The notes under the pieces were generated by a model that had not been told where the DNA came from, did no database searches, and saw nothing but the letters and a program-made list of their open reading frames with translations. A program made the position numbers and the translations under genes. From assembly GCA_003155655.1 (NCBI GenBank), contig PMDS01000077.1, positions 86,877 to 150,876 of the forward strand: a stretch of 64,000 bases of DNA, read 5' to 3'. The number at the start of each line of letters is the position of its first letter. Positions within the stretch are counted from its first letter, which is position 1. Positions 46,866 to 61,722 of the stretch are shown one piece after another. Source of the stretch: Melioribacter sp. Lineage in GTDB: Bacteria > Bacteroidota > Ignavibacteria > Ignavibacteriales > Melioribacteraceae.

Positions 46866-46975
46866 AATTAGATTCCTTGCAGACATTGTTGGATTATTTT
46901 TGTATGTAAAGATAAAGGGTGGGGTGGATTTGTACAATGATAAATATCGTTATAATATTTATTCTTTCCACGTAA

Positions 46976-47042
46976 AGACGAATCTTGCTTTCCGAGATCG
47001 TCTCATTTTTGTTTAAGTTCTTTGAGATGATCGACCCGGTCG
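46976..47042. repeat. REP-like hairpin pair downstream of the RAYT remnant
   Basis: Two overlapping inverted repeats: AGACGA (46976-46981) with TCGTCT (46998-47003), and GATCGTCTCA (46997-47006) with TGAGATGATC (47033-47042, one mismatch). The GAGACGATC / GATCGTCTC arms recur at 47446-47468 and 48763-48802, so these belong to one local repeat family. Confidence 0.55.
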
Positions 47043-47265
47043 GCAGGCAGGTTTTCAGATCTAAATTTTCTGGTGTATTTTTTTCTAATTCCCATCGCAA
47101 TGGGTTCTGTTCAGTGTATTTACGAATTTTGTATAATTCTTTTTCGTTTCGGATGATTCTATCGTAGAACCTTGGCTGGCAGGCAAAATCTATTAAACCA
47201 TTTTTGTTGGCATATTTTGAAACAGCAGATTTGAAAGAGCCAACTATGTTTGACAATGTTGGTAT

Positions 47266-47305
47266 AGACGAGGCCACGTCATAGCCGGGCAAGCATGCCT
47301 CGTCT
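47266..47305. repeat. REP-like hairpin in the RAYT linker (GACGAGGC type)
   Basis: Perfect 9-bp arms AGACGAGGC (47266-47274) and GCCTCGTCT (47297-47305) with a 22-nt loop. It sits directly at the 5' edge of the 3' RAYT half. The form (GTA)AAGACGAGGC...GCCTCGTCTATAC is typical of REP elements mobilised by RAYTs. Confidence 0.65.
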
Positions 47306-47445
47306 TTACGTTTCACCAAACGACAGTGTCTGAGCCGGACAAGCCGAACCGGTTGTCTTTACAACTCCAATTATTCTGGTTTATCTTTTTCTAATTCTAT
47401 CGCAAAGATGATGCGGTGCATCGTTTCATTTTGATCTCGCAATAT

Positions 47446-47468
47446 GAGACGATCGAACCGATCGTCTC
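47446..47468. repeat. REP-like hairpin in the RAYT linker (GAGACGATCG type)
   Basis: Perfect 10-bp arms GAGACGATCG (47446-47455) and CGATCGTCTC (47459-47468) with a 3-nt loop. It interrupts the RAYT reading frame just after the conserved IIIIEK end of the 5' half. A smaller hairpin, GATGC-GGT-GCATC, follows nearby at about 47410-47422. Confidence 0.65.
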
Positions 47469-47744
47469 TACAACTTTTTCAATGATAATAATTCCATGTA
47501 TGTGGTTTGGCATGATTACATAATAATCTAATTCAACATTTTCCCTTAATTCCATAGTGCGCAACCATTCATTATCAACAATTTTCCCTAATTCGTTTAG
47601 AACCATTTTCTCGTGAATGACTTTACCAAAGAAATGAATATGATTTTTTGTATTTATTGTTACATAATAATACCATGGATTAGAATAATCCCATTCTTTT
47701 AATCTAATTGATTCTATGCGGTATTTATTTTGATATAGTGACAT

Positions 47745-47935
47745 TCATTAATCGAACCCCAATGCAATGAATAATGTAAATAGGAATGGAAATAATTTCA
47801 GATACAACTTGTTAAAACCATGCAACAAAATCCACAAGATAATTTTGTTGAGACAAGGCCACGCCAACCAAAGGCTGGTAAACCGCGCCTACGATAAATC
47901 TTCGGTGGGCAGCCTTAAAAAGAGATACCATGCTT
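47745..47935. other. Gene-free stretch with degenerate inverted repeats
   Basis: No credible gene. It holds an inverted repeat CAACAAAAT (47823-47831) / ATTTTGTTG (47842-47850), then a GC-richer patch (about 47851-47896; GAGACAAGGCC..., CCAACC/GGCTGG) that looks like another decayed REP-like hairpin. Together with the next entries this makes a gene-free region running to 48841. Confidence 0.45.
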
Positions 47936-48425
47936 ACAATACCCTGATATGAAAACGCACACATTTTGCTAAGGTGAAATTTACATGCTTTGAGTAAAAA
48001 TAATTTGATTTGAGATAGAGAAATTTTTTAGAGCAAATCACAGCAAGCGAAGTAAGATTAAGAGTAAGATTATGATTAAGAGTAAGTTGGTTTTAATATT
48101 GTCAAAGAAACTTTTGAAAGCCTTACCTATTCAAATTTGAATGAACTTAAGAGGACAAACAAATTACTAATTTAACTTATACAATACACTGATATGAAAA
48201 CGCACACATTTTGTTAAGGTGAATTTTACATGCTTTAAGTAAAAAAAAATTTGATCTGAGATAGAGAAATTTTTGAGAGCAAATCACAACAAGCGAAGTA
48301 AGATTAAGAGTAAGATTATGATTAAGAGTAAGTTGGTTTTAATATTGTTAAAGAAACTTTTGAATGCCTTACCTATTCAAATTTGAATAAACTGAAGAGG
48401 ACAAACAAAATACTAATATAACCTA
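47936..48425. repeat. Tandem direct repeat, two copies of about 245 bp
   Basis: Copy 1 (47936-48180) and copy 2 (48181-48425) begin with ACAATAC(C/A)CTGATATG and run in the same order, with scattered substitutions, to GAGGACAAACAAA. Each copy contains the smaller repeat GATTAAGAGTAAG twice. There is no open reading frame of note in either copy, and the most conserved part is the centre (AGCGAAGTAAGATTAAGAG). The divergence implies an old duplication or a maintained element. Function unknown; it could be a non-coding element or a decayed mobile unit. Confidence 0.8.
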
Positions 48426-48497
48426 CATATGATTTTTGAAAGGTTCAGAATAATATGAGAAAAAAGTTTTACATATTTGGTGCGGACCTCACCCCAA

Positions 48498-48545
48498 CCC
48501 TCTCCCCCGCAAAAAGCACGGGACAAGCTTAAAAAAAGGAGAGGG
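48498..48545. repeat. Inverted repeat CCCTCTCC / GGAGAGGG
   Basis: Perfect 8-bp arms at 48498-48505 and 48538-48545, with a 32-nt centre containing GCACGGGACAAGCTT. In composition it resembles the C/T-rich hairpin at 46260-46316, and its loop resembles the hairpin at 48625-48643 (both contain GGGACAAGC). Probably another interspersed palindromic element. Confidence 0.45.
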
Positions 48546-48620
48546 GAACAATGTAAAAATATTTTACATTGAAAAGTTCTTTGACATACTGACTTTACCA
48601 TAGATCCATAATGGTAATAA

Positions 48621-48643
48621 AAACCCCGACAAAAAACGTCGGG
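48621..48643 (-). terminator. Terminator-like hairpin
   Basis: On the minus strand, CCCGAC-(7-nt loop)-GTCGGG (48643-48625) is followed by GTTTTTATT. It could end transcripts from the DUF2807 gene, whose stop lies about 200 nt upstream, although this distance is long. It may instead be a repeat-derived hairpin. Confidence 0.4.
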
Positions 48644-48650
48644 ACAAGCG

Positions 48651-48763
48651 GGATATAAATGGGATAATAATGGGCCAAAAATGGATAAAAAGTGGGATAA
48701 AAATGGACTATAAATGGAGTAAAAATGGGATAGAAACGGTACAGAAATGGGATAAAAAAAATG
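48651..48763. repeat. Array of ten degenerate 11-bp tandem repeats
   Basis: Units of the form GGATAAAAATG repeat head to tail from 48651, nine of exactly 11 bp and a last one of 14 bp (extra A residues), with two to four changes per unit. The array abuts a REP-like hairpin (48763-48802). The minus-strand frame across it reads a periodic FLSHF-type peptide, but this follows from the repeat and has no other support as a gene. Confidence 0.8.
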
Positions 48764-48802
48764 AGACGATCCCCTAGCCATCATAACACATCGGACCGTC
48801 TC
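48763..48802. repeat. REP-like hairpin (GAGACGATCC type)
   Basis: Arms GAGACGATCC (48763-48772) and GGACCGTCTC (48793-48802) pair with one mismatch around a 20-nt loop. The left arm matches the hairpin inside the RAYT remnant (47446-47468). It lies between the 11-bp array and the DUF2807 lipoprotein gene. Confidence 0.55.
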
Positions 48803-48841: not shown

Positions 48842-49492
48842 CTAATCTTTCCTACTTATTGAACCAACACCTGAAACATTTGTCTTAGTGCTTTCAGGAT
48901 TGCCGTAATAATTAATTGAACCTACACCTGAAACAGAAGCTTCAAGAAATTTTGTAGCATAAACTTCCGCACTTGCTGCACCGCTAACCGATACATGAAC
49001 ATCTTGTGCTTTTAAATACCGTGCATCAATACTGCCCGCGCCGGAAATGCCGGCTCTCATTTTTTCAACTTCGCCTTTTAATTTTATATTACCAGCACCG
49101 CTCAATTCAACATTAAAACTGTCGCCGTTAATTCCTTCAACAACAACATTGTTTGCGCCTGATACATCTACAGACCTTAGATCTGGTGTAGTAATTGTGA
49201 TCAAAATTTCCTTGCGCGGTGATATGCTTTTGCGCGTATCAATTTCAAGTGTATTCCCCTTAACATTTGTCCTGATGTAGCTTAAAAGGTTTTCCTCAGC
49301 AGATATTTTTAATGAAGTAGGAGAACCAACATAAACACGAATAGAAAACGCACCACCGGCATCAATTTTCTGAAAATCCATTACATCCCTGGTTTCCTCT
49401 TTAACATGTCCATTTCCCCTAACGCCCCAAAAACCGCATCCGCTCAGACCAATACCTAATAGGACAATCAGTGAGATTATTTTAGATTTCAT
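48842..49492 (-). CDS. DUF2807 (GIN-domain) lipoprotein
   Basis: 216 residues from ATG 49492, chosen because GGAG lies 7 nt upstream and the protein then begins with a lipoprotein signal (MKSKIISLIVLLGIGLSGC, lipobox LSGC). The mature part is a beta-strand-rich GIN/DUF2807 domain with repeats such as 'VDVSGANNVVVEGI', 'VELSGAGNIKLKG', 'AGISGAGSIDARY' and 'ASVSGVGSINYYG'. Such proteins are common in Bacteroidota; a head-like adhesin role has been proposed, and function is otherwise unknown. It is divergent from the AAA+ gene; the 163-nt gap should hold both promoters. Confidence 0.85.
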   Translation of the reverse strand: MKSKIISLIVLLGIGLSGCGFWGVRGNGHVKEETRDVMDFQKIDAGGAFSIRVYVGSPTSLKISAEENLLSYIRTNVKGNTLEIDTRKSISPRKEILITITTPDLRSVDVSGANNVVVEGINGDSFNVELSGAGNIKLKGEVEKMRAGISGAGSIDARYLKAQDVHVSVSGAASAEVYATKFLEASVSGVGSINYYGNPESTKTNVSGVGSISRKD

Positions 49493-49655
49493 GGTATTCT
49501 CCATTATTTGTTCTATTAGACGTTTAAAAATGACAATAGTTTTGCAGGTTTTCATAATTGTTTCCTTTCGTGAAAATACTTTAGTTAATCCTCTTAACTT
49601 CTTATATTCCTTCACGAGAATAATAGACACATTACAAATTATAATCTGGTAATAA

Positions 49656-52600
49656 TTGTTTCATGAAGATTTAAATACACTGCAGGCAGAAGCCTATGAC
49701 CATTTATGGAATGGAAGATTCCGTCTTGCTTTAAATGCTGCCGAAAAGGTTTATCAATCACGTCCTGATGACAGTGAAGCGGCTATATGTTATGCCTGGG
49801 CTTTATTAGAAAACGGAAGTCCAATTAAGGCTATGGAATATGCAAACCTTGCTGTTGAACTTAAAGGGGAATCGATTAGATCCAGGATTTATAGGGCTTA
49901 TCTCCTTTCAAGGATGAGCATTTTTGAGGGAGCAATTGCAGATTTTGACCTATCGATTGAAAATCAAAAAGATATTTTAGCCTGGACGTATTTAAATAAA
50001 TCGAGATCATTAGCGGGTCTGCAAAAATTTGAAGAAGCAAACAATGCACTTGACCTTGCGCTGATAATTGATGACAATAAAAATCCATCCTGGAAAGAAA
50101 TGAGGGACTGGATTATTAAAGCTTTGCAAATAAGCCGTAAGGACCCGGATTATTACGGAGATACAGCAAAGGTACTGGAAGATGCTGAACGGGCAATTAA
50201 AGTTAAGGAGTATTGGTTTGCGCTTTTAGCATCAAGAGCAGTATTAGAAAATAAAAAAAATGAAGAAGCGGAAATTTATGAACTGGAAGCTATGCTCTAT
50301 CTTTTCCAGTTAAAGCCTGCACTTAAAAAGGCAAATTCAATGGCTAGCCGTTTTAAGAAGAACGAAAAATTTGCCGGCATTTTTGCAGCAATAAAAAAAT
50401 TCTCCCAGCTGGAACAAGAATCTGAAGTAACTTTTGAACAAAGGAAAAAATTAACTCAAGAAAATTTAGACCGGCTTACTAAAACACTCACTACGGCTTC
50501 TTTATCAACAAACTATAAGACAGATTTTTTCCCTTACCCGAATGATGATATAAAAATAATTTCACTTAAATTATTTGATGATCAGGAGGAATTAAAACCT
50601 AACTCAAGGAATTTTTATAAAGTATTTAATCAATCTGTCAAGTCAATTTCAGCAGAAATAATATTTGAAAATCCATTTTATGATAAAGAAGATAAACTAT
50701 TTGAGTGCACTGCTGTCTGGTACTTAAATGATTTTGAAATAAGCAGGAACAATTTCAATTTAAGCGTTAAAAAAGATTTGGAATCAGGTGTAATTACTCA
50801 GCAATGCGGAACAGAAAAATCAAATGGTTGGAAGATTGGGCAGGCTCGTGTAGAAATATATATAAATAATTTCAAGGTATGTGCTAAAAATTTCGGAATT
50901 GGCAATGCAAAAATTCCTGAAGAGGAAAAACAAATACCTTCAAAAACTAAAACCGAATCTAAAGCCAGTGAGATTTCTTCAACAACAATTAGGCAGCCGA
51001 GAACAACAAAATCTCTTGATGAGCTGATGGCTGAATTTGAATTATTGACAGGATTATCAAGCATCAAGGAAGCAATTAAAAGTTTTATTGCATATCTGGA
51101 ATTTTTGAAAGAACGTAAACGTTTTGGTCTAAAAGCCGATGACAGGATTTCTATAAATGCTGTTTTTCTTGGTAATCCCGGAACCGGCAAAACTACTATT
51201 GCACGAATGCTGGGTGAAATTTTTTATGCTATGGGAATTCTTCCTAACGGGCATGTAGTTGAAGTTGACCGTTCAGCAATAGTTGGGCAATATGTTGGAG
51301 AGACCGCACAGAAAACAGAAAAAGTTATTAATGATGCTATGGGCGGTATCTTATTCATAGATGAAGCATACACCCTGATCAAGAAAGGTGGAGCGCAGGA
51401 TTTTGGTCAGGAAGCAATAGACATTATCCTTAAGCGTATGGAAGATAGAAAAGGTGAATTTGTTGTTATTGCTGCCGGGTATCCCGCTGAAATGGAATCT
51501 TTTTTAAATTCTAACCCGGGACTTAAATCCCGTTTTACTCACACTTTTGTTTTTGAAGATTATACACCTGACGAACTTTTAACAATATTCCAGCAGTTGT
51601 TAAAGAAAGAAGATTATAAACTTACACATGGTGCGGAAGAAATTTTAAAGAAAGAACTCATAGCATTATACAGAAACAGGGATAAATCATTTGGCAATGC
51701 CAGACTTGTAAAAAAACTTTTTGAAGAAGCAAAACTTAATCTAAGCAGATATTATCAGAAGATCCCTTACGATAAAAGAGATGAATCAGTTATAACAACT
51801 TTTTCAGAAGATGTTATTAAATCGATATTTGCAAAAAAATCATCCACAGAAGTTAAACTGCCTATTAACGAAGAAGCATTAGCTGAATCTCTAAACGAAC
51901 TAAATAATTTAGTCGGTCTTAATCTACTCAAAAAAGAAGTTGATGAGATGATTAAACTTGCTCGTTTCTTTAACGAGCAAGGTGATGATATAAGAAAGAT
52001 TTTTAATCAGCATATTTCATTTTTAGGTAATCCAGGCACTGGTAAAACAACAGTTGCAAGAATTCTGGGACGCATTTACTCGGCTCTTGGAATTTTACAC
52101 AAAGGACATATTATTGAGACTGACCGTCAGGGATTAGTTGCAGGATATGTAGGGCAGACCGCGGAAAAAACAACTGCAATGATTGATAGAGCAATTGGAG
52201 GAATGTTATTTATTGATGAAGCCTATTCTTTGATTAAACCGAATGATTCAGGAAACGATTTCGGGAAGGAAGCAATTGATATTCTCTTGAAACGCATGGA
52301 AGATGACCGCGGAAGATTTCTTGTAATTGCCGCCGGGTATACAAATGAAATGCTGAATTTTATTGCCAGCAATCCAGGAATGCAATCGCGTTTCAGCAAA
52401 TCATTCACTTTTGAAGATTATACTCCAAAAGAGTTAATGGAAATTGTAAAGCGTTCATTAGAAAAAGACAAGAAATTAATTACAAAAGAAGCGCAGGAAC
52501 GGTTAGAAAAATACTTTGAAGAACTTTATAAGGGACGGGATAAGAAATTTGGGAACGCCAGAATAGTACGTAATATTTTAGAATCGGTTAAACATAAAAT

Positions 52601-53546
52601 GCTGCTGCGGCTGTCGGGAATCCCATCGGAAAGCAGAACAGAAGAAAGTACAAATACTATTGAACTTGTAGACATTAATGAAGTATTGGACCGTGACGTT
52701 GAAGCAAAGCAATTTGAAGTTAAAGGTGACCCTCTGAGACTTCAAGAACACATTAACGAACTTAATCAGCTTATTAATCTTGAAAACGTTAAAAAGGATA
52801 TTTATAAGCTGATTAGCTTCTCAAAAATTTCTCAACTAAAAAAAGAACGCGGGCTGCAATCCCCTGATAGAAATTTACACTCAATATTCATTGGAAATCC
52901 CGGAACCGGTAAACGTACTGTAACAAGATTAATCGGCAAGATTTACAAAGAATTGGGAATACTTAGTAATGGTCATGTTGTTGAAGTTGAGCGGGCTGAT
53001 TTAGTTGCTAGTTATCAGGATGAATCAGCGCTTAAAACTGATAAAATTATTCAGCAGGCTATTGGCGGCATATTATACATTAAAGAGGTACATTCATTAT
53101 TTTCTGATGAAGACCCTTATGGTCATGAATCAATTGAAATAATCCTAAGGCGTCTTAATGACTATAAAGGTAAATTAGTTGTTGTTCTTTCCACCACAAA
53201 CTTCGAGATTAATAAAATATTAAAAGCTAATCCCGGGTTGTCTTCTTATTTCCCTAATAAATTTTTCTTTGAAGACTACACTCCACGCCAGCTGCTTGCC
53301 ATAGCCGCAATGGTTGCGGAAAAGAACGGATATACTCTTGATGAAGGGGCTTTACAGGAGATACTTGATCTATTTGACAAACTTTGCGCTCGAGACAATA
53401 GATCATTTCAAAATGGAATTACAGCAAAAAATATTTTGTATTCTGCAATTACAAATCAGGAAGAAAGGATTTTTGGTATTTATGATCAAAAAGATGTTGA
53501 CCTTACTACTATTACATTAGATGATGTACAAAAGATAAAAATCTGA
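49656..53546 (+). CDS. TPR protein with three CbxX/CfxQ-type AAA+ modules
   Basis: 1296 residues. The N-terminal TPR-like region (about 1-250) and a beta-rich linker domain (about 290-420) precede three tandem AAA+ modules, with GNPGTGK at about 505, 790 and 1079. Modules 1 and 2 look active (GNPGTGKTT, LFIDEAY, NPGL/M-x-SRF). Module 3 is altered: GNPGTGKRT in Walker A, LYIKEVH where LFIDEAY is expected, and NPGLSSYF in place of the arginine-finger NPG..SRF. The family includes Rubisco activase CbbX and SpoVK; the client here is unknown. The start is TTG 49656. ABC-exporter genes follow 45 nt later. Confidence 0.88.
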   Translation: MFHEDLNTLQAEAYDHLWNGRFRLALNAAEKVYQSRPDDSEAAICYAWALLENGSPIKAMEYANLAVELKGESIRSRIYRAYLLSRMSIFEGAIADFDLSIENQKDILAWTYLNKSRSLAGLQKFEEANNALDLALIIDDNKNPSWKEMRDWIIKALQISRKDPDYYGDTAKVLEDAERAIKVKEYWFALLASRAVLENKKNEEAEIYELEAMLYLFQLKPALKKANSMASRFKKNEKFAGIFAAIKKFSQLEQESEVTFEQRKKLTQENLDRLTKTLTTASLSTNYKTDFFPYPNDDIKIISLKLFDDQEELKPNSRNFYKVFNQSVKSISAEIIFENPFYDKEDKLFECTAVWYLNDFEISRNNFNLSVKKDLESGVITQQCGTEKSNGWKIGQARVEIYINNFKVCAKNFGIGNAKIPEEEKQIPSKTKTESKASEISSTTIRQPRTTKSLDELMAEFELLTGLSSIKEAIKSFIAYLEFLKERKRFGLKADDRISINAVFLGNPGTGKTTIARMLGEIFYAMGILPNGHVVEVDRSAIVGQYVGETAQKTEKVINDAMGGILFIDEAYTLIKKGGAQDFGQEAIDIILKRMEDRKGEFVVIAAGYPAEMESFLNSNPGLKSRFTHTFVFEDYTPDELLTIFQQLLKKEDYKLTHGAEEILKKELIALYRNRDKSFGNARLVKKLFEEAKLNLSRYYQKIPYDKRDESVITTFSEDVIKSIFAKKSSTEVKLPINEEALAESLNELNNLVGLNLLKKEVDEMIKLARFFNEQGDDIRKIFNQHISFLGNPGTGKTTVARILGRIYSALGILHKGHIIETDRQGLVAGYVGQTAEKTTAMIDRAIGGMLFIDEAYSLIKPNDSGNDFGKEAIDILLKRMEDDRGRFLVIAAGYTNEMLNFIASNPGMQSRFSKSFTFEDYTPKELMEIVKRSLEKDKKLITKEAQERLEKYFEELYKGRDKKFGNARIVRNILESVKHKMLLRLSGIPSESRTEESTNTIELVDINEVLDRDVEAKQFEVKGDPLRLQEHINELNQLINLENVKKDIYKLISFSKISQLKKERGLQSPDRNLHSIFIGNPGTGKRTVTRLIGKIYKELGILSNGHVVEVERADLVASYQDESALKTDKIIQQAIGGILYIKEVHSLFSDEDPYGHESIEIILRRLNDYKGKLVVVLSTTNFEINKILKANPGLSSYFPNKFFFEDYTPRQLLAIAAMVAEKNGYTLDEGALQEILDLFDKLCARDNRSFQNGITAKNILYSAITNQEERIFGIYDQKDVDLTTITLDDVQKIKI

Positions 53547-53591: not shown

Positions 53592-54320
53592 ATGCTCGAA
53601 TTAAAAAATCTTATAAAAAAATTTGGTGCATTCACTGCGGTTAATAAAATCGATTTAGAAATAAACAGCGGTCAATTGTTCGGATTTCTTGGACCTAATG
53701 GCGCCGGCAAAACAACAACAATTAAAATGATTGTTGGTCTGCTTGAACCTTCAGAAGGAAATATATTTTTAGACGGGGTTGATATTTGGAAAGAACAGAT
53801 CAAATGCAAAATGAAAATAGGGTATATACCCGACCAGCCTTTCTTGTATGATAAACTTACAGGGCGGGAATATCTTTATTTTAGCGGAGGATTATTTAAC
53901 CTGCAAAAAGATTTTTTAAAAGATAAAATTGAGCAATTAGCTGAGACACTAAAAATTGGCAACTGGATAGATAAACGATGCGAAGAATATTCTCAGGGAA
54001 TGCGGCAAAGAATTGTAATTGCATCAGCATTTCTTCACGATCCTGAATTGATTATTATTGATGAACCTATGATTGGTTTAGACCCACAGAGCGCTTTTCT
54101 TGTTAAAAAATTGTTTGTTGAAAAAATAATGAATGGTTCAATTATTTTTATGTCAACTCATTCATTAAATGTTGTTGAGGATATTTGTACTCATGTAGGA
54201 ATAATTAATAGGGGCAATATTATTTTTAACGATACTATTGATGCTTTACGCGCACTTAAACTGCAGAATAAACATAATCTTGAAGAACTTTTTATACAGC
54301 TTACAAATGAAGAAGAATAA
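53592..54320 (+). CDS. ABC transporter ATP-binding protein
   Basis: 242 residues. GFLGPNGAGKTTTIKM (Walker A, about 34-49), signature YSQGMRQR, Walker B LIIIDEPMIGLDP and H-loop STHS. This is the ABC-2 type exporter or drug/antibiotic type family. The partner permease starts 10 nt downstream. The substrate is unknown. It lies 45 nt after the AAA+ gene, so co-transcription is likely. Confidence 0.92.
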   Translation: MLELKNLIKKFGAFTAVNKIDLEINSGQLFGFLGPNGAGKTTTIKMIVGLLEPSEGNIFLDGVDIWKEQIKCKMKIGYIPDQPFLYDKLTGREYLYFSGGLFNLQKDFLKDKIEQLAETLKIGNWIDKRCEEYSQGMRQRIVIASAFLHDPELIIIDEPMIGLDPQSAFLVKKLFVEKIMNGSIIFMSTHSLNVVEDICTHVGIINRGNIIFNDTIDALRALKLQNKHNLEELFIQLTNEEE

Positions 54321-54330
54321 TTAGTTCATA

Positions 54331-56019
54331 ATGAACCAAATCATCCACATACTTAAATTCAAATTTCTGCTTTTTATACGTCCGGATGCAATGTTATCAT
54401 TCCGTATACTATTTAAAAATATTGGCAGCGGTTTAACTTATACAGGTTTTGCAATAGGAGCTTATTTTTTTTCACAAACAATAATACATTTTTTACTTAA
54501 TGATTTAAAAATAGGACTTTTTCTCCTGCATCAATTAATCTCAATAATACTTTTTATTTTCTTTATCTCGGTAAATGTTGGCAATATTATAGTCTCGTAT
54601 GCAACTCTTTATAAATCAAACGAAATTCATTATTTATTTACAAAACCAATAGAACCGACAAAAATATTTTTCATAAAATTTCTTGATAATTTCTTCTACA
54701 GTTCTTCAACATTATTAATGATTTTATTCTCTTTTCTTGCAGGTTACATTGTTGACTTTAAATTAAGCATTGCAGTATTATTTCTTCTTGTCTTTAATTT
54801 TATCCCTTTCATGTTAAGTGCAGGATCACTTGGTGTTATAATTCTATTAGTTATAATTAGACTTGGAAATCGATTCGGATTAAGAAAAGTAATTGCTGTT
54901 CTGGCGTTTTTTTACATTTTATCAATCATATTATTTTTCGAAAAAAGCTCCCCTAAGACAATTGTAGATTCAATGCTTAAATACAATCAAATTTCCGTCA
55001 GAGATTTACATCTTGTTCAGCTGCTTCCTTTAAAAATTAAAATAATGCCAAATAACTGGCTCGCAGAAACAGCTTATTGGCTTGTAAGGGGTAATTTATC
55101 TTATGCCCTTTCTTTCACATATCTGCAAGTTGTACTATCATTTGTTTTATTTGTTGCAGCAATTTTACTTGGCCGTAAATGGTATCTTAAGACCTGGCTG
55201 CTTAATTTGGATCATTCTGATATAAATCCGTCAGGTCAAAGCGCTGTTAAATCATTTGTTTCATTCAATAAAAAATCTTTTTTGAAAAGCCAATGGGAAG
55301 CAATTATTAAGCGTGATTTAATTCTTTTTATTCGGGAACCAAGCCAGGTCATTCATTTTCTTGTTCTTTTGTTTTTAATCATTGTTTTCATCATCAGTGC
55401 TTCAGGTATTAAATTTGTGGGTATTGGTAATTTCTATTTGCAGACAATGATCTACTTATCTTTATTTCTTTTTGATTTACTGTTTATAACAACCTTATCA
55501 TTAAGATTTATTTTCCCGCTGATAAGTTTGGAAGGTGAAACATTTTGGAAAGTAAAATCATCACCAATCTCATTCAATACACTATTAATTTGTAAAACCT
55601 CCGTTATTTCCACAATAATTTTGCTAATAAGTTTGAGTTTAAGTTATTTTTCAAATGTCAGGCTTGGTTATTTTATGACAATTTACTCAGTCATTATTAC
55701 ACTCTTTGCAGCTTTAACAATTATGTCTGTAAATTTTGGTTTGGGAGGTATTTTTAAAAACTATAAAGAAAAAAATGCAATCAGGTTGTCGTCTTCACAA
55801 GGTGCAACAATTACTTTTTTGATTAATATTATTTATATGCTTTTTTTAATAGCTCTTCTTTTCAAACCGTTAAGCCAAATGTTTTTATCATTTTCACTCA
55901 CAAGAGAATTTCAATATGGCGTGTTTATTCTTCCCATACTGCTTATAACATTAATTTCAATAGTAATGATTGTAATCTTTTTACGATTCGCAAGCAGCTC
56001 AATAAAAGAGGATATCTGA
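54331..56019 (+). CDS. ABC-2-like transporter permease
   Basis: 562 residues with roughly 12 hydrophobic segments spread over the whole length, as in large ABC-2 type export permeases. An intracellular loop (about 275-330) separates two membrane halves. No family motif beyond topology is evident. It forms a transporter with the preceding ATPase. The stop (56017-56019) directly abuts the convergent SDR stop at 56020, with no spacer and no room for a separate terminator. Confidence 0.82.
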   Translation: MNQIIHILKFKFLLFIRPDAMLSFRILFKNIGSGLTYTGFAIGAYFFSQTIIHFLLNDLKIGLFLLHQLISIILFIFFISVNVGNIIVSYATLYKSNEIHYLFTKPIEPTKIFFIKFLDNFFYSSSTLLMILFSFLAGYIVDFKLSIAVLFLLVFNFIPFMLSAGSLGVIILLVIIRLGNRFGLRKVIAVLAFFYILSIILFFEKSSPKTIVDSMLKYNQISVRDLHLVQLLPLKIKIMPNNWLAETAYWLVRGNLSYALSFTYLQVVLSFVLFVAAILLGRKWYLKTWLLNLDHSDINPSGQSAVKSFVSFNKKSFLKSQWEAIIKRDLILFIREPSQVIHFLVLLFLIIVFIISASGIKFVGIGNFYLQTMIYLSLFLFDLLFITTLSLRFIFPLISLEGETFWKVKSSPISFNTLLICKTSVISTIILLISLSLSYFSNVRLGYFMTIYSVIITLFAALTIMSVNFGLGGIFKNYKEKNAIRLSSSQGATITFLINIIYMLFLIALLFKPLSQMFLSFSLTREFQYGVFILPILLITLISIVMIVIFLRFASSSIKEDI

Positions 56020-58597: not shown

Positions 58598-59149
58598 TTA
58601 AATCATTTCGCTTAGCAATTCCGGTCTGGGTTTTGGAATAACAATTTTATTAACAAGCAGTCCCCGGTCGGCAATTACTTTAGCGCCTGCTTCAACAGCG
58701 CTTGTAACCGCAGCAACTTCTCCGGTTAATGTACAAAACGCTTTTCCTCCAAGAGCCATTGCCAGGCGAATTTCGATTAAACGCACATTTGCAGCTTTGA
58801 CAGCAGCATCGGCACCTTCAATAAGTGACGCAACTGAAAAAGATTCAATAATGCCCAAGGCTTCAAGCGAACTAACATCCGAATGACCTGAAAGCGCCGG
58901 GAATATATCCTTATGAACATTAGGAATTACAAATGTATCTATAACCGCAAAATCAATTTGCTGAGTAGCTGCATCTACAGCCGACTGAACTTCTGCAACG
59001 TCTCCACCTATTAATACAATAAATTTGCCGGAACATATTGTTCTAGATAAAATCAATTCAACCTGGGATGTTTTCAACATAATATCAGCAGCTTGCATTC
59101 CGGCTGCAATACTTGTCATTTCAATCAAGCCGATTGAGTTCATTTCCAT
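58598..59149 (-). CDS. Bacterial-microcompartment tandem-domain shell protein, PduT-like
   Basis: 183 residues, two BMC domains (about 4-87 and 95-180; 'SIGLIEMTSIAAGMQAADIMLK', 'ALGIIESFSVASLIEGADAAVK'). This is a BMC-T trimer type. Cys39 in TICSGKF falls where PduT has the Cys that places a [4Fe-4S] cluster in the central pore, so I infer an electron-conducting shell protein. It follows the PduS-like gene by 22 nt, the usual partner. No BMC-H or BMC-P shell gene and no signature enzyme lie in this window. Confidence 0.88.
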   Translation of the reverse strand: MEMNSIGLIEMTSIAAGMQAADIMLKTSQVELILSRTICSGKFIVLIGGDVAEVQSAVDAATQQIDFAVIDTFVIPNVHKDIFPALSGHSDVSSLEALGIIESFSVASLIEGADAAVKAANVRLIEIRLAMALGGKAFCTLTGEVAAVTSAVEAGAKVIADRGLLVNKIVIPKPRPELLSEMI

Positions 59150-59171
59150 TCCTTAATCCTTCCTTAAAATA

Positions 59172-60485
59172 TTATTGAGCAATACGAATAAATTCATCAG
59201 AGACATGTGTTACTTTTCCGGAAATTGACGCATGTACTTTTGCACCAAGCATCCCTTCATCAATTTCACCGATTAGCATTCCTTCATGCACAAAGTTTCC
59301 AAGTTTAACAACCGCTTTTGCCGGGGTTCCAACATGCTGCTTTAAGAGAATTTTAACTTGTGAAACATTTGGAGATAGTTTAATAAAAGGTGTATGTGTA
59401 TCATACTTTAGAATATCCATCCTTTTCATAAGCTGTTTAAGAGGCACTCTTCTTCCCTCTTTTATCGGATGAACTTTAACTTCTTTTTGCTGAATATACC
59501 TGGTTCCCATTTTTTTGTTTTCCGCTTTTCCCTGGTCGCAGGCTTCGCGGGGATATAAATCTTCCGGACACGCATATAAAGAACATAATCCACAAGAGCA
59601 GCACAAATCTGCATATTGGTTCCATACGTTTTGACCGGTCGTAGAAAAAACAAGAGAACGCATTACCTTATGCGGCTGAACATCATACCCAAGAAGATAC
59701 CGGGGACAGAATTCCGTACAATAGCTGCATTGATCACAGGCAGATTTTCCAATCCTGTTTTTATCCTGTATAGGCCTTTCCATTCTGTTGACCAGGTAAT
59801 GATCTGCAGGAAGAATGATAATGCCGGCAATAGTTTTTGTAACAACATCAGTTACGTCAAAAGATAAACGTCCCATTAAGATCCCGCTTACAAAAATTCC
59901 AAAATCTTTAACTGTAGCTCCTCCCGCATGTTCTAAAAGATCTTTAAAGCTTGTTCCTACCGGGACAAAAAAAGATGAAGGATTTTTAACACACCCGGCA
60001 ACGCTAACAAATTTTTGAGTAACCGGTTTGTCTTCTGCAGCATGAGAAATATTATAAAATGTCTCAACATTATTTACTATGCATCCTACATCTATAGGCA
60101 ATCCATAAGGAGGAATCAATCTTTTTATTGCAGCATAAACCAGTTCATATTCATCACCGCTGGGATAAAAATCTCCAAGCTGGCATGTTTCTATTTTTTT
60201 ATCAGTATAACACTTTTCAACGGCGGTTATTGCATCTGCATTTTTTGCTTTTATACCAAAATAAGATTTTTTTGCTGATGTTTGCTTTATCATTAAATCA
60301 ACTGCATTAACAATCTCAGGAGCAAAATTTTTCATCAGTTCAAAGTCTTTATGAATGAGAGGTTCGCACTCAGCCCCATTTATAAGCACAAATTCAACCT
60401 GTGATTTTGCTTTCACATGCGTTGGAAAACCGGCACCCCCCGCGCCAACCACACCTGCATCAAATATTTTTTTTACGAGATCCAT
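59172..60485 (-). CDS. PduS-like / RnfC-like flavoprotein with two [4Fe-4S] sites
   Basis: 437 residues. N-terminal 'DAGVVGAGGAGFPTHVK' (NADH/FMN loop of the Nqo1/RnfC fold), INGAECEPL, an SLBB-like segment, then two Cys sets: CDQCSYCTEFCPRY and CCSCGLCSLYACP. A C-terminal barrel-sandwich hybrid (GMLIGEIDEGMLGAKVHASI) follows. PduS reduces cobalamin or passes electrons from NADH across microcompartment shells with PduT. ATG 60485 is preferred; a longer frame to 60509 overlaps the phosphatase gene. It starts 1 nt after that gene's stop. Confidence 0.9.
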   Translation of the reverse strand: MDLVKKIFDAGVVGAGGAGFPTHVKAKSQVEFVLINGAECEPLIHKDFELMKNFAPEIVNAVDLMIKQTSAKKSYFGIKAKNADAITAVEKCYTDKKIETCQLGDFYPSGDEYELVYAAIKRLIPPYGLPIDVGCIVNNVETFYNISHAAEDKPVTQKFVSVAGCVKNPSSFFVPVGTSFKDLLEHAGGATVKDFGIFVSGILMGRLSFDVTDVVTKTIAGIIILPADHYLVNRMERPIQDKNRIGKSACDQCSYCTEFCPRYLLGYDVQPHKVMRSLVFSTTGQNVWNQYADLCCSCGLCSLYACPEDLYPREACDQGKAENKKMGTRYIQQKEVKVHPIKEGRRVPLKQLMKRMDILKYDTHTPFIKLSPNVSQVKILLKQHVGTPAKAVVKLGNFVHEGMLIGEIDEGMLGAKVHASISGKVTHVSDEFIRIAQ

Positions 60486-60486
60486 T

Positions 60487-61722
60487 TTACCTGTTTTTTT
60501 TAATAACAACTATTGTTTTATCATCCTGATACTGGCTGTCGTTTGTGCTGAATTTTAATACATCATCCAAGATTGAAGCAGCAATTTCTTTAGGTGTTCC
60601 ATTTACATTTTTCAATATCATTTTTTGAAGTCTTTCTTCACCATAAAATTCGTATTTATCATTTGCAGATTCTACTATACCATCAGAATAAATCACAAGC
60701 ACATCACCTTTATGGAAATTAATGCTGTCAGTTTCATATTTTGAATGAGGCGCCGGTCCAAGCAAAGGTCCAGTTGGTCCTAGTGTTGTGAAATTGTTAA
60801 ACTTTTTATTATAGAATAACGGCGGATTTTGTCCTGCATTTGCATATAAAAACAATCCCTTCTTATCATTTGATATTTCACCATAAAAAAGTGTAATAAA
60901 TTTATCGTCACTGAATATTTTACTTACCAATTGATTAAGTCTAAGAAGCATCGGTGAAATTTTGATTTGGAAAGTGCTTGCCATTCTTAAAGCGCCGGAA
61001 ATGTACATTGCTTCGGCAGCTGCGCCTAAACCTTTTGATGCCGCATCACCAACAACAATACCCATTCTTTCTTCATCGTCACCAATTTTAAGATAGTCAT
61101 AAAAATCACCTGCAACATTATCTGCAGGAATTGTAATGCCAAAAATGTCATAAGCAAAAAATTTTAGTTCGTGTTCCGGTAAAATGCTCCTTTGAAGCGC
61201 GCGGGCTTTATCAATATCTTCTATTAAATTTTTTCTTGATATACTTAAGTATCTTTCATTCAGCTTTGATGTAAGAACTGTTGCAACAACATTCAAAGTA
61301 TAACTTAAATCATCACCCAGCATTTTGGAGTTGACAGCCAGTAAATATTCATAATATTTTTTTTCGCCTAAACGTATTTTTCTTCCCACACCCGCTGCAG
61401 AGTATTTAAATATTCCCTTGCTAAGCAATACTTTGTCTGTTTCATCTGCAAGTACGGTTCTTTCAACTGAAATTCTATCAACAATAGGATAATCTTTTAT
61501 GTGTATTGCAAGTTCATCCGGTATTTTTTCAACTTTCCCGGTCTGGAATAATAATTTGTATGATTTTTTCTTTGCATCGAACTGCCAGACTCTGCCTCCC
61601 AGCAGTTGGATTGATTCATTCTTTACAATTTGCTGAACAACATCAACCAGTAGTTCCTTATCGCTTGGAAAATTTTTTGAAGCGACTGTTTCAATTGTTC
61701 TATATAGTTTTTTCTGATCCAT
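60487..61722 (-). CDS. SpoIIE/PP2C-type serine/threonine phosphatase with N-terminal GAF-like domain
   Basis: 411 residues. The first 160 residues resemble a GAF-type sensory domain; the remainder is a PP2C-SpoIIE phosphatase with the metal Asp residues in VAGDFYDY, VGDAASKGLGAA and YSDGIVES. Such proteins usually dephosphorylate anti-sigma-factor antagonists (STAS proteins). No STAS or anti-sigma kinase gene is in the window. It starts 5 nt after the M64 stop and abuts the PduS-like gene, so it may control or share the fate of the PduS/PduT pair. Confidence 0.85.
   Translation of the reverse strand: MDQKKLYRTIETVASKNFPSDKELLVDVVQQIVKNESIQLLGGRVWQFDAKKKSYKLLFQTGKVEKIPDELAIHIKDYPIVDRISVERTVLADETDKVLLSKGIFKYSAAGVGRKIRLGEKKYYEYLLAVNSKMLGDDLSYTLNVVATVLTSKLNERYLSISRKNLIEDIDKARALQRSILPEHELKFFAYDIFGITIPADNVAGDFYDYLKIGDDEERMGIVVGDAASKGLGAAAEAMYISGALRMASTFQIKISPMLLRLNQLVSKIFSDDKFITLFYGEISNDKKGLFLYANAGQNPPLFYNKKFNNFTTLGPTGPLLGPAPHSKYETDSINFHKGDVLVIYSDGIVESANDKYEFYGEERLQKMILKNVNGTPKEIAASILDDVLKFSTNDSQYQDDKTIVVIKKNR

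Follow-up and report, generated by a model that had tools for sequence, protein, structure and literature searches.

A 64,000-nucleotide stretch of Melioribacter sp. DNA (contig PMDS01000077.1, positions 86,877 to 150,876; hereafter the window) carries a gene for a protein in which a front of tetratricopeptide repeats (TPR) is followed by a beta-sandwich and three AAA+ modules. Judged by its sequence and those of its relatives, this protein is a conserved multi-module member of the SpoVK/CbbX/EccA clade, the C-terminal module of which has repeatedly been converted into a maintained pseudo-ATPase. The gene and the parts of its product are the following:

49656..53546, + strand: gene for the TPR, beta-sandwich and triple AAA+ protein (open reading frame of 1296 aa, TTG start)
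49662..50342, + strand: TPR-like helical repeats, residues 3-229 (AlphaFold2, per-residue confidence, pLDDT, mostly >90; structural matches to TPR proteins)
50364..50480, + strand: long helix linker, residues 237-275 (AlphaFold2)
50526..50903, + strand: beta-sandwich domain, residues 291-416 (confident in AlphaFold2; weak fold similarity to UNC119-type proteins and to one Wzt chain)
51006..51836, + strand: AAA+ module 1, residues 451-727, catalytic motifs intact, pore loop YVG
51861..52691, + strand: AAA+ module 2, residues 736-1012, catalytic motifs intact, pore loop YVG
52731..53543, + strand: AAA+ module 3, residues 1026-1296, degenerate

The consensus of the homologue alignment opens with MxxEELN, in agreement with the start of the 1296-aa reading frame. 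Pfam recognised AAA (PF00004) in three stretches of the protein and AAA_lid_6 (PF17866) in another three, which puts the presence of three modules far beyond chance. AlphaFold2 models were obtained for the front (residues 1-450; 53 homologues in the alignment, mean pLDDT 86.7) and for the AAA+ part (mean pLDDT 84.3, predicted TM-score, pTM, 0.39), both from alignments consisting exclusively of Ignavibacteriales relatives. The front is predicted to form a helical-repeat superhelix, a long helix and a separate beta-sandwich. An earlier interpretation made from the letters alone (the sequence-only reading) had proposed a TPR front, which corresponds to the superhelix at residues ~3-229, and three modules; it was right on both and overlooked the beta-sandwich at residues ~291-416. 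The 50 best VIA-align matches of the front are TPR-type proteins, that is, matches of the TPR part. For the beta-sandwich, the window copy has no Pfam match, and across 35 members Pfam gave 11 families, each in 1/35; a profile search of the PDB found nothing better than E 0.1, and Foldseek returned, at low TM-scores, UNC119 chains (0.17-0.20 relative to the query, 0.37-0.46 relative to the target) and a single chain of a Wzt transporter (0.20 and 0.25, respectively). No family assignment is claimed for this domain. In the AAA+ model, the individual modules are folded with confidence but their arrangement relative to one another is not; predicted module 1 aligns with CbbX 3syl_B (Z 27.3, 272 residues, rmsd 4.3) and predicted module 3 with CbbX 3syk_A (Z 27.0, 269 residues, rmsd 4.1).

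The P-loop, Walker B, arginine-finger and sensor-2 segments read GNPGTGKTT, ILFIDEAY, NPGLKSRF and FGNAR in module 1, and GNPGTGKTT, MLFIDEAY, NPGMQSRF and FGNAR in module 2; the corresponding segments of module 3 are GNPGTGKRT, ILYIKEVH, NPGLSSYF and FQNGI. The Arg of SRF is taken here to be the arginine finger (CbbX R194). Walker A, Walker B and the arginine finger are thus complete in modules 1 and 2 (GKTT, IDE, SRF), and all three changes ascribed to module 3 by the sequence-only reading are present (GKR(T), IKE, SYF). Modules 1 and 2 also keep the sensor-1 GY (AAGY) and the sensor-2 Arg (in FGNAR). Both are gone in module 3, in which AAGY has become LSTT and the sensor-2 segment is FQNGI, while the Asn of NPG, six residues ahead of the Arg position of SRF, is found in all three modules. 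The relevant positions in module 3 are:

52893..52919, + strand: P-loop GNPGTGKRT (Arg after Lys)
53082..53084, + strand: Walker B Asp position, occupied by Lys (residue 1143)
53247..53249, + strand: arginine-finger position, occupied by Tyr (residue 1198)
53328..53471, + strand: lid signature specific to module 3 (GYxLDEGALQ ... NQEERI)

This is a conserved protein of the Ignavibacteriales, not the oddity of a single strain. A full-length copy was found in 46 of 57 relatives (own genome included), some in two or more pieces and one (that of G003) with an in-frame stop. In a sample of the phylum, 49/395 genomes gave a match at E ≤ 1e-30, 36 of them in the same order; the 13 matches listed outside it all leave the TPR front uncovered, and six of them are proteins of 870-897 aa with two modules. 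The 64 named loci belong to Ignavibacteria, Ignavibacteriales, Ignavibacteriaceae, Melioribacter(aceae) or Stygiobacter, or to metagenome-assembled genomes (MAGs) labelled unspecifically as Bacteroidetes or bacterium. A plasmid collection yielded 302 matching records, none of which covers 80% of the query. In a tree of the separate modules, modules 1, 2 and 3 group by position, which suggests that the three-module plan predates the radiation of the order.

The state of module 3 was followed in 77 distinct full-length three-module homologues, that is, proteins of 1200-1400 aa with exactly three module hits and cores that differ from one another (some being near-copies). Fragments at contig ends, proteins with two or with four to six modules, exact duplicates, two loci with in-frame stops (L016 and L105) and loci collected later (L157-L193, some of them full-length) lie outside this set; L058, L059 and L060, within it, constitute a paralogous clade. 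All modules are intact in 47 of the 77 and module 3 alone is degenerate in 28; of the remaining two, one (L040) is degenerate in module 1 alone and the other (L054) in modules 2 and 3. Module 3 is therefore intact in 48/77 and degenerate in 29/77. The first of the two exceptions (L040:2524-6378) is the sole protein of the set with a degenerate module 1 (IDDAN, SIF), its modules 2 and 3 being intact. Outside the set, L061-L065 contain four to six CbxX-type modules; the first is divergent, with IDNAQ or IDNVQ as its Walker B, and the catalytic motifs are kept in the later ones.

When these states were placed on a tree computed without the module 3 columns, at least six changes were needed, six being forced by the branches starred in the tree; this tree came from a quick search (LG+G4, SH-aLRT support only) and has long branches (L052, L053, L054) and a doubtful join of L053 with L145. 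Because so many copies are intact, the direction of change was probably loss from an intact ancestor. The largest degenerate groups are one of 16 proteins (11 from the window's genus, five from the Stygiobacter group) and one of six relatives; together with three intact proteins they form an unresolved fork, and may represent one loss or two. Module 3 is degenerate in every one of the 11 full-length orthologues that the genus contributes to the set (own plus 10), with differing substitutions, and a paralogue (L059) from a genome with a degenerate orthologue (G004) has an intact module 3. Within the 16-protein group the Walker B Asp has become Lys or Arg in 14/16 and the P-loop Thr has become Arg or Lys in 12/16; the same pair, P-loop Arg and Walker B Lys, is seen in L151, a member of a separate lineage. 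The sequence-only reading had envisaged that homologues might have an intact module 3, with decay in this strain only. Intact copies do exist (48/77), but the decay spans the 11 genus orthologues, the five Stygiobacter-group proteins and further lineages. It had also asked whether the changes in module 3 are conserved: the degenerate state recurs (29/77) but the substitutions vary.

The dead module is under selection. The ratio of nonsynonymous to synonymous substitution rates (dN/dS), calculated by NG86 with our own script and with dS near saturation in several pairs, was 0.04-0.15 for degenerate module 3 (eight pairs) and 0.02-0.06 for intact module 3 (five measurable of eight pairs), the degenerate pairs giving 0.02-0.08 in modules 1 and 2. 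The P-loop Lys is retained in 27/29 degenerate copies, and the lid residues D1229, E1230, G1231, Q1234, Q1268, E1269 and R1271 are identical in 29/29. Three proteins (L056, L057 and L066) have no module 2 and keep module 3, which is degenerate in L057, and AlphaFold2 predicts a CbbX-like fold for the dead module. That module 3 is degenerate yet retained, as had been proposed from the window alone, is thus borne out across homologues by dN/dS, full length and lid residues. The pore loop is [YF][IV]G in module 1 of 77/77 proteins, and in module 2 starts with Y, F or H and ends with G in 76/77; in module 3 it is YQG in 39/48 intact copies, suggesting that this module differed before dying.

According to the passages of PMC10659427 on this clade, it is defined by a sensor-1 GY signature together with a sensor-2 Arg, its members share a bihelical hairpin just before Walker A, and those characterised so far are chaperones of narrow scope that recruit through N-terminal domains of various kinds. 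In the part of PMC5385338 dealing with CbbX, pore loops of Tyr, Ile and Gly pull the RuBisCO tail. The clade core, a CbxX-type AAA+ with AAA_lid_6, occurs in the window protein in three stretches each; by the definition as worded in those passages of PMC10659427, the sensor residues are present in modules 1 and 2, and both are lost in module 3. The CbxX-type chaperone with a client-recruiting TPR front put forward in the sequence-only reading fits a clade so composed. The explanation that we favour, with moderate confidence, is that this member of the SpoVK/CbbX/EccA clade acts as a client-specific remodelling chaperone in which module 3 has become a scaffold or a sensor of nucleotide. One client or a small set of clients would be recruited by the TPR and beta-sandwich front, and modules 1 and 2, which have canonical aromatic-hydrophobic-Gly pore loops, would hydrolyse ATP and pull the client. 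In this lineage module 3 would not hydrolyse ATP; it probably either still binds nucleotide or is apo-like, and might have a structural or regulatory role, using its conserved lid surface to hold the assembly or a partner.

Several observations weigh against this explanation. The client is putative, and the reading was reached by sequence comparison rather than biochemistry. Degenerate module 3 has a higher dN/dS than modules 1 and 2 in 6/8 pairs and ties with module 2 in the other two, so that the dead module is somewhat less constrained, although by this measure it is clearly selected. A member of the paralogous clade (L066) keeps module 3 without the lid signature. Neighbouring genes differ by family (the ABC pair, groESL, GIN/purE) and none fixes a function. 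The groEL neighbourhood offers less than it seems to: 14/70 loci (those with at least 2.6 kb upstream) have a same-strand groEL no more than three genes upstream, with a CIRCE-like element (≤2 mismatches) in 14/14 of them and none in the window at up to 4 mismatches. A terminator-like hairpin with a T-run is present in 12/12 direct groEL-AAA intergenic stretches (judged by eye on folds, with no shuffle control), and weakens the argument from a proteostasis operon. The chaperonin operon was consequently dropped as a sign of co-expression, the link being positional at best.

An alternative for the assembly, in line with the sequence-only reading and possible if rather doubtful, is that two chains make one mixed hexamer of fixed order (1-2-3-1-2-3) in which the dead module 3 imposes asymmetry as in dynein. 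Dynein is a mixed ring carrying dead positions; both it and Pex1/6 keep inactive AAA+ modules beside active ones, although they belong to other AAA+ clades, unlike the present case, where a single orthologous family has undergone the inactivation repeatedly. In favour of the mixed hexamer, two three-module chains would exactly fill a CbbX-like hexamer, the order of the modules is fixed, and a 1:1 CbbX hetero-hexamer of a red alga is described in the part of PMC5385338 on that enzyme. The motif losses are less easily accommodated. Among 31 degenerate modules, 30 have lost both their own ATP site and their own arginine finger, one the finger alone and none the site alone. In AAA+ rings the arginine finger acts on the neighbouring subunit; in a mixed hexamer, module 3 would lend its finger to the ATP site of a different module, but 28/29 proteins with a degenerate module 3 have complete motifs in modules 1 and 2. 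Because site and finger go jointly while the neighbouring modules stay intact, like-with-like contacts, as in stacked rings, are the easiest to reconcile with these data. The motif losses thus lean mildly towards stacked rings of the same module, the joint loss in 30/31 not being decisive given dynein. Proteins without module 2 also speak against the mixed hexamer. The predicted arrangement of the modules is not confident (pTM 0.39); in that same model, two modules could be aligned to Cdc48, p97, NSF, Rix7 and NVL only at an rmsd as high as 12-29. A bolder variant, which we consider improbable, is a three-tier chaperone with a ring for each module type and a third ring repeatedly and independently turned non-hydrolysing. 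Both Mg2+ ligands (P-loop Thr/Ser and Walker B Asp) have become basic residues in the window lineage and, convergently, in L151, and these could latch a nucleotide without Mg2+; if so, Mg2+-free nucleotide in the third tier would be a permanent structural latch.

The genes around the AAA gene that recur in relatives are:

53592..54320, + strand: ABC transporter ATPase, recurrent downstream neighbour, 45 bases after the AAA gene
54331..56019, + strand: ABC_tran_2 (PF16949) membrane component, recurrent downstream neighbour
48842..49630, - strand: divergent neighbour, DUF2807 (head GIN domain)

The sequence-only reading had singled out the ABC exporter as the obvious partner, and a dedicated accessory of that exporter, in assembly or substrate delivery and with other contexts secondary, was weighed against the client-specific chaperone. 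Neighbourhoods were counted at 84 loci, one per distinct protein, two-module and paralogous ones included. Among the 68 with at least 2.6 kb downstream, 31 have a same-strand ABC ATPase or PF16949 permease within three genes, and the ABC pair recurs in two (f1 and f3) of three coded families. Of the genomes bearing the permease, 22/29 have it adjoining the AAA gene by coordinates, and in the window no terminator-like site separates the AAA gene from the ABC genes. Nevertheless, the AAA protein occurs without a permease match (E ≤ 1e-20) in 22/57 genomes and the permease without the AAA protein in two, counts affected by a contig that ends inside the ABC pair (G006) and by an AAA gene cut by a contig end (G032). 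The exporter is thus a recurrent but dispensable neighbour, not an obligate partner, and the accessory role appears unlikely. ABC neighbours were seen at 15/23 degenerate versus 15/42 intact loci; this comparison is uncorrected for kinship and was not used.

Each of the names SpoVK, CbbX and EccA was rejected, every single module being below the NCBIfam cut-off. SpoVK is the best match of every module, with 214-275 bits against a cut-off of 423; CbbX gave 157-224 bits (cut-off 459) and EccA 185-228 bits (cut-off 467). The whole protein passes all three cut-offs solely by summing three stretches, which for SpoVK come to 707.7 bits together. The window protein resembles CbbX/CfxQ in its AAA+ fold (Z 27 for modules 1 and 3) and in the aromatic-hydrophobic-Gly pore loop of modules 1 and 2; unlike it, CbbX has a single module and no TPR front, and the RuBisCO large subunit gave no match in 57/57 genomes, own included, in a search that matched 5/14 control genomes. 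With SpoVK it shares a higher-order clade and the best module scores, whereas SpoVK, in the account given in those passages of PMC10659427, has a short N-terminal domain and is confined to sporulating Firmicutes. Two-module CbxX-type proteins of other Bacteroidota classes (L174-L179) come closer: 4/6 match from query residue 295-301 onwards, that is, over the middle domain and modules 1 and 2, but they match nothing of the TPR front and have no module 3. An EccA-like secretion chaperone is very improbable: EccA has a TPR front with a CbxX-type AAA+ and is among the three best NCBIfam models, and the EccA1 structure 9lur_A matches module 2, but every module of the window protein scores far below the EccA cut-off. 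EccA, a protein of type VII secretion, has one AAA+ module. The model for EccB, another component of that system, is silent in the own genome and equally in all 14 control genomes, which gives its silence little weight. Just as improbable is neutral decay of a functionless module 3 on its way to loss: the Walker B Asp position (K, N, D, R, E, S, P) and the finger position (Y, K, L, H, I, N, F) do vary among the 29 degenerate copies, and two MAGs have in-frame stops, one inside module 3 (L016) and one before it (L105), possibly by assembly error, but the dN/dS of 0.04-0.15, the full length of 29 proteins over groups needing at least six state changes, the seven invariant lid residues, and the fact that L105 is the sole collected orthologue seen to stop between modules 2 and 3 (contig-end fragments apart) all argue otherwise. 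Neutral decay in one strain was rejected on the recurrence in the 77-protein set and its tree together with dN/dS.

The divergent GIN-domain gene accompanies the AAA gene in 38/70 loci, and purE and the GIN gene are directly adjacent in many relatives. In the window, the stretch between them (46894-48784) contains short open reading frames that have no Pfam match, one of which resembles a REP-associated transposase by eye. On the - strand at 58598-60509 lie a two-domain BMC (microcompartment shell) protein and a Complex1_51K/RnfC_N protein, presumably PduS-like; copies of the BMC protein are found within eight genes of the AAA gene in 16/84 loci, own included. The paralogues L058 (L058:7769-13932), L059, L060 and L066 are immediately preceded by a SiaC-like gene and one coding for 77-85 aa. 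Upstream of L058, Pfam confirms SiaC, a DUF6272 protein and a response regulator-SpoIIE protein, which suggests that the paralogous TPR-AAA+ clade is linked to SiaABC-type signalling. Among the papers listed in literature searches none deals with the window protein, and those listed for CbxX do not concern it by their titles and the openings of their abstracts.

These results describe an uncharacterised protein, in our reading a chaperone, that is common in Ignavibacteriales and that an NCBIfam whole-protein score would call SpoVK. Depending on the species, one and the same AAA+ module of this orthologous family is living or dead, and its state has changed at least six times. Since living and dead versions of one protein exist, the role of inactive AAA+ modules could be tested by comparison or swap. 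The recurrent inactivation under selection is the point of interest, and the family offers natural material on what dead motor modules do.

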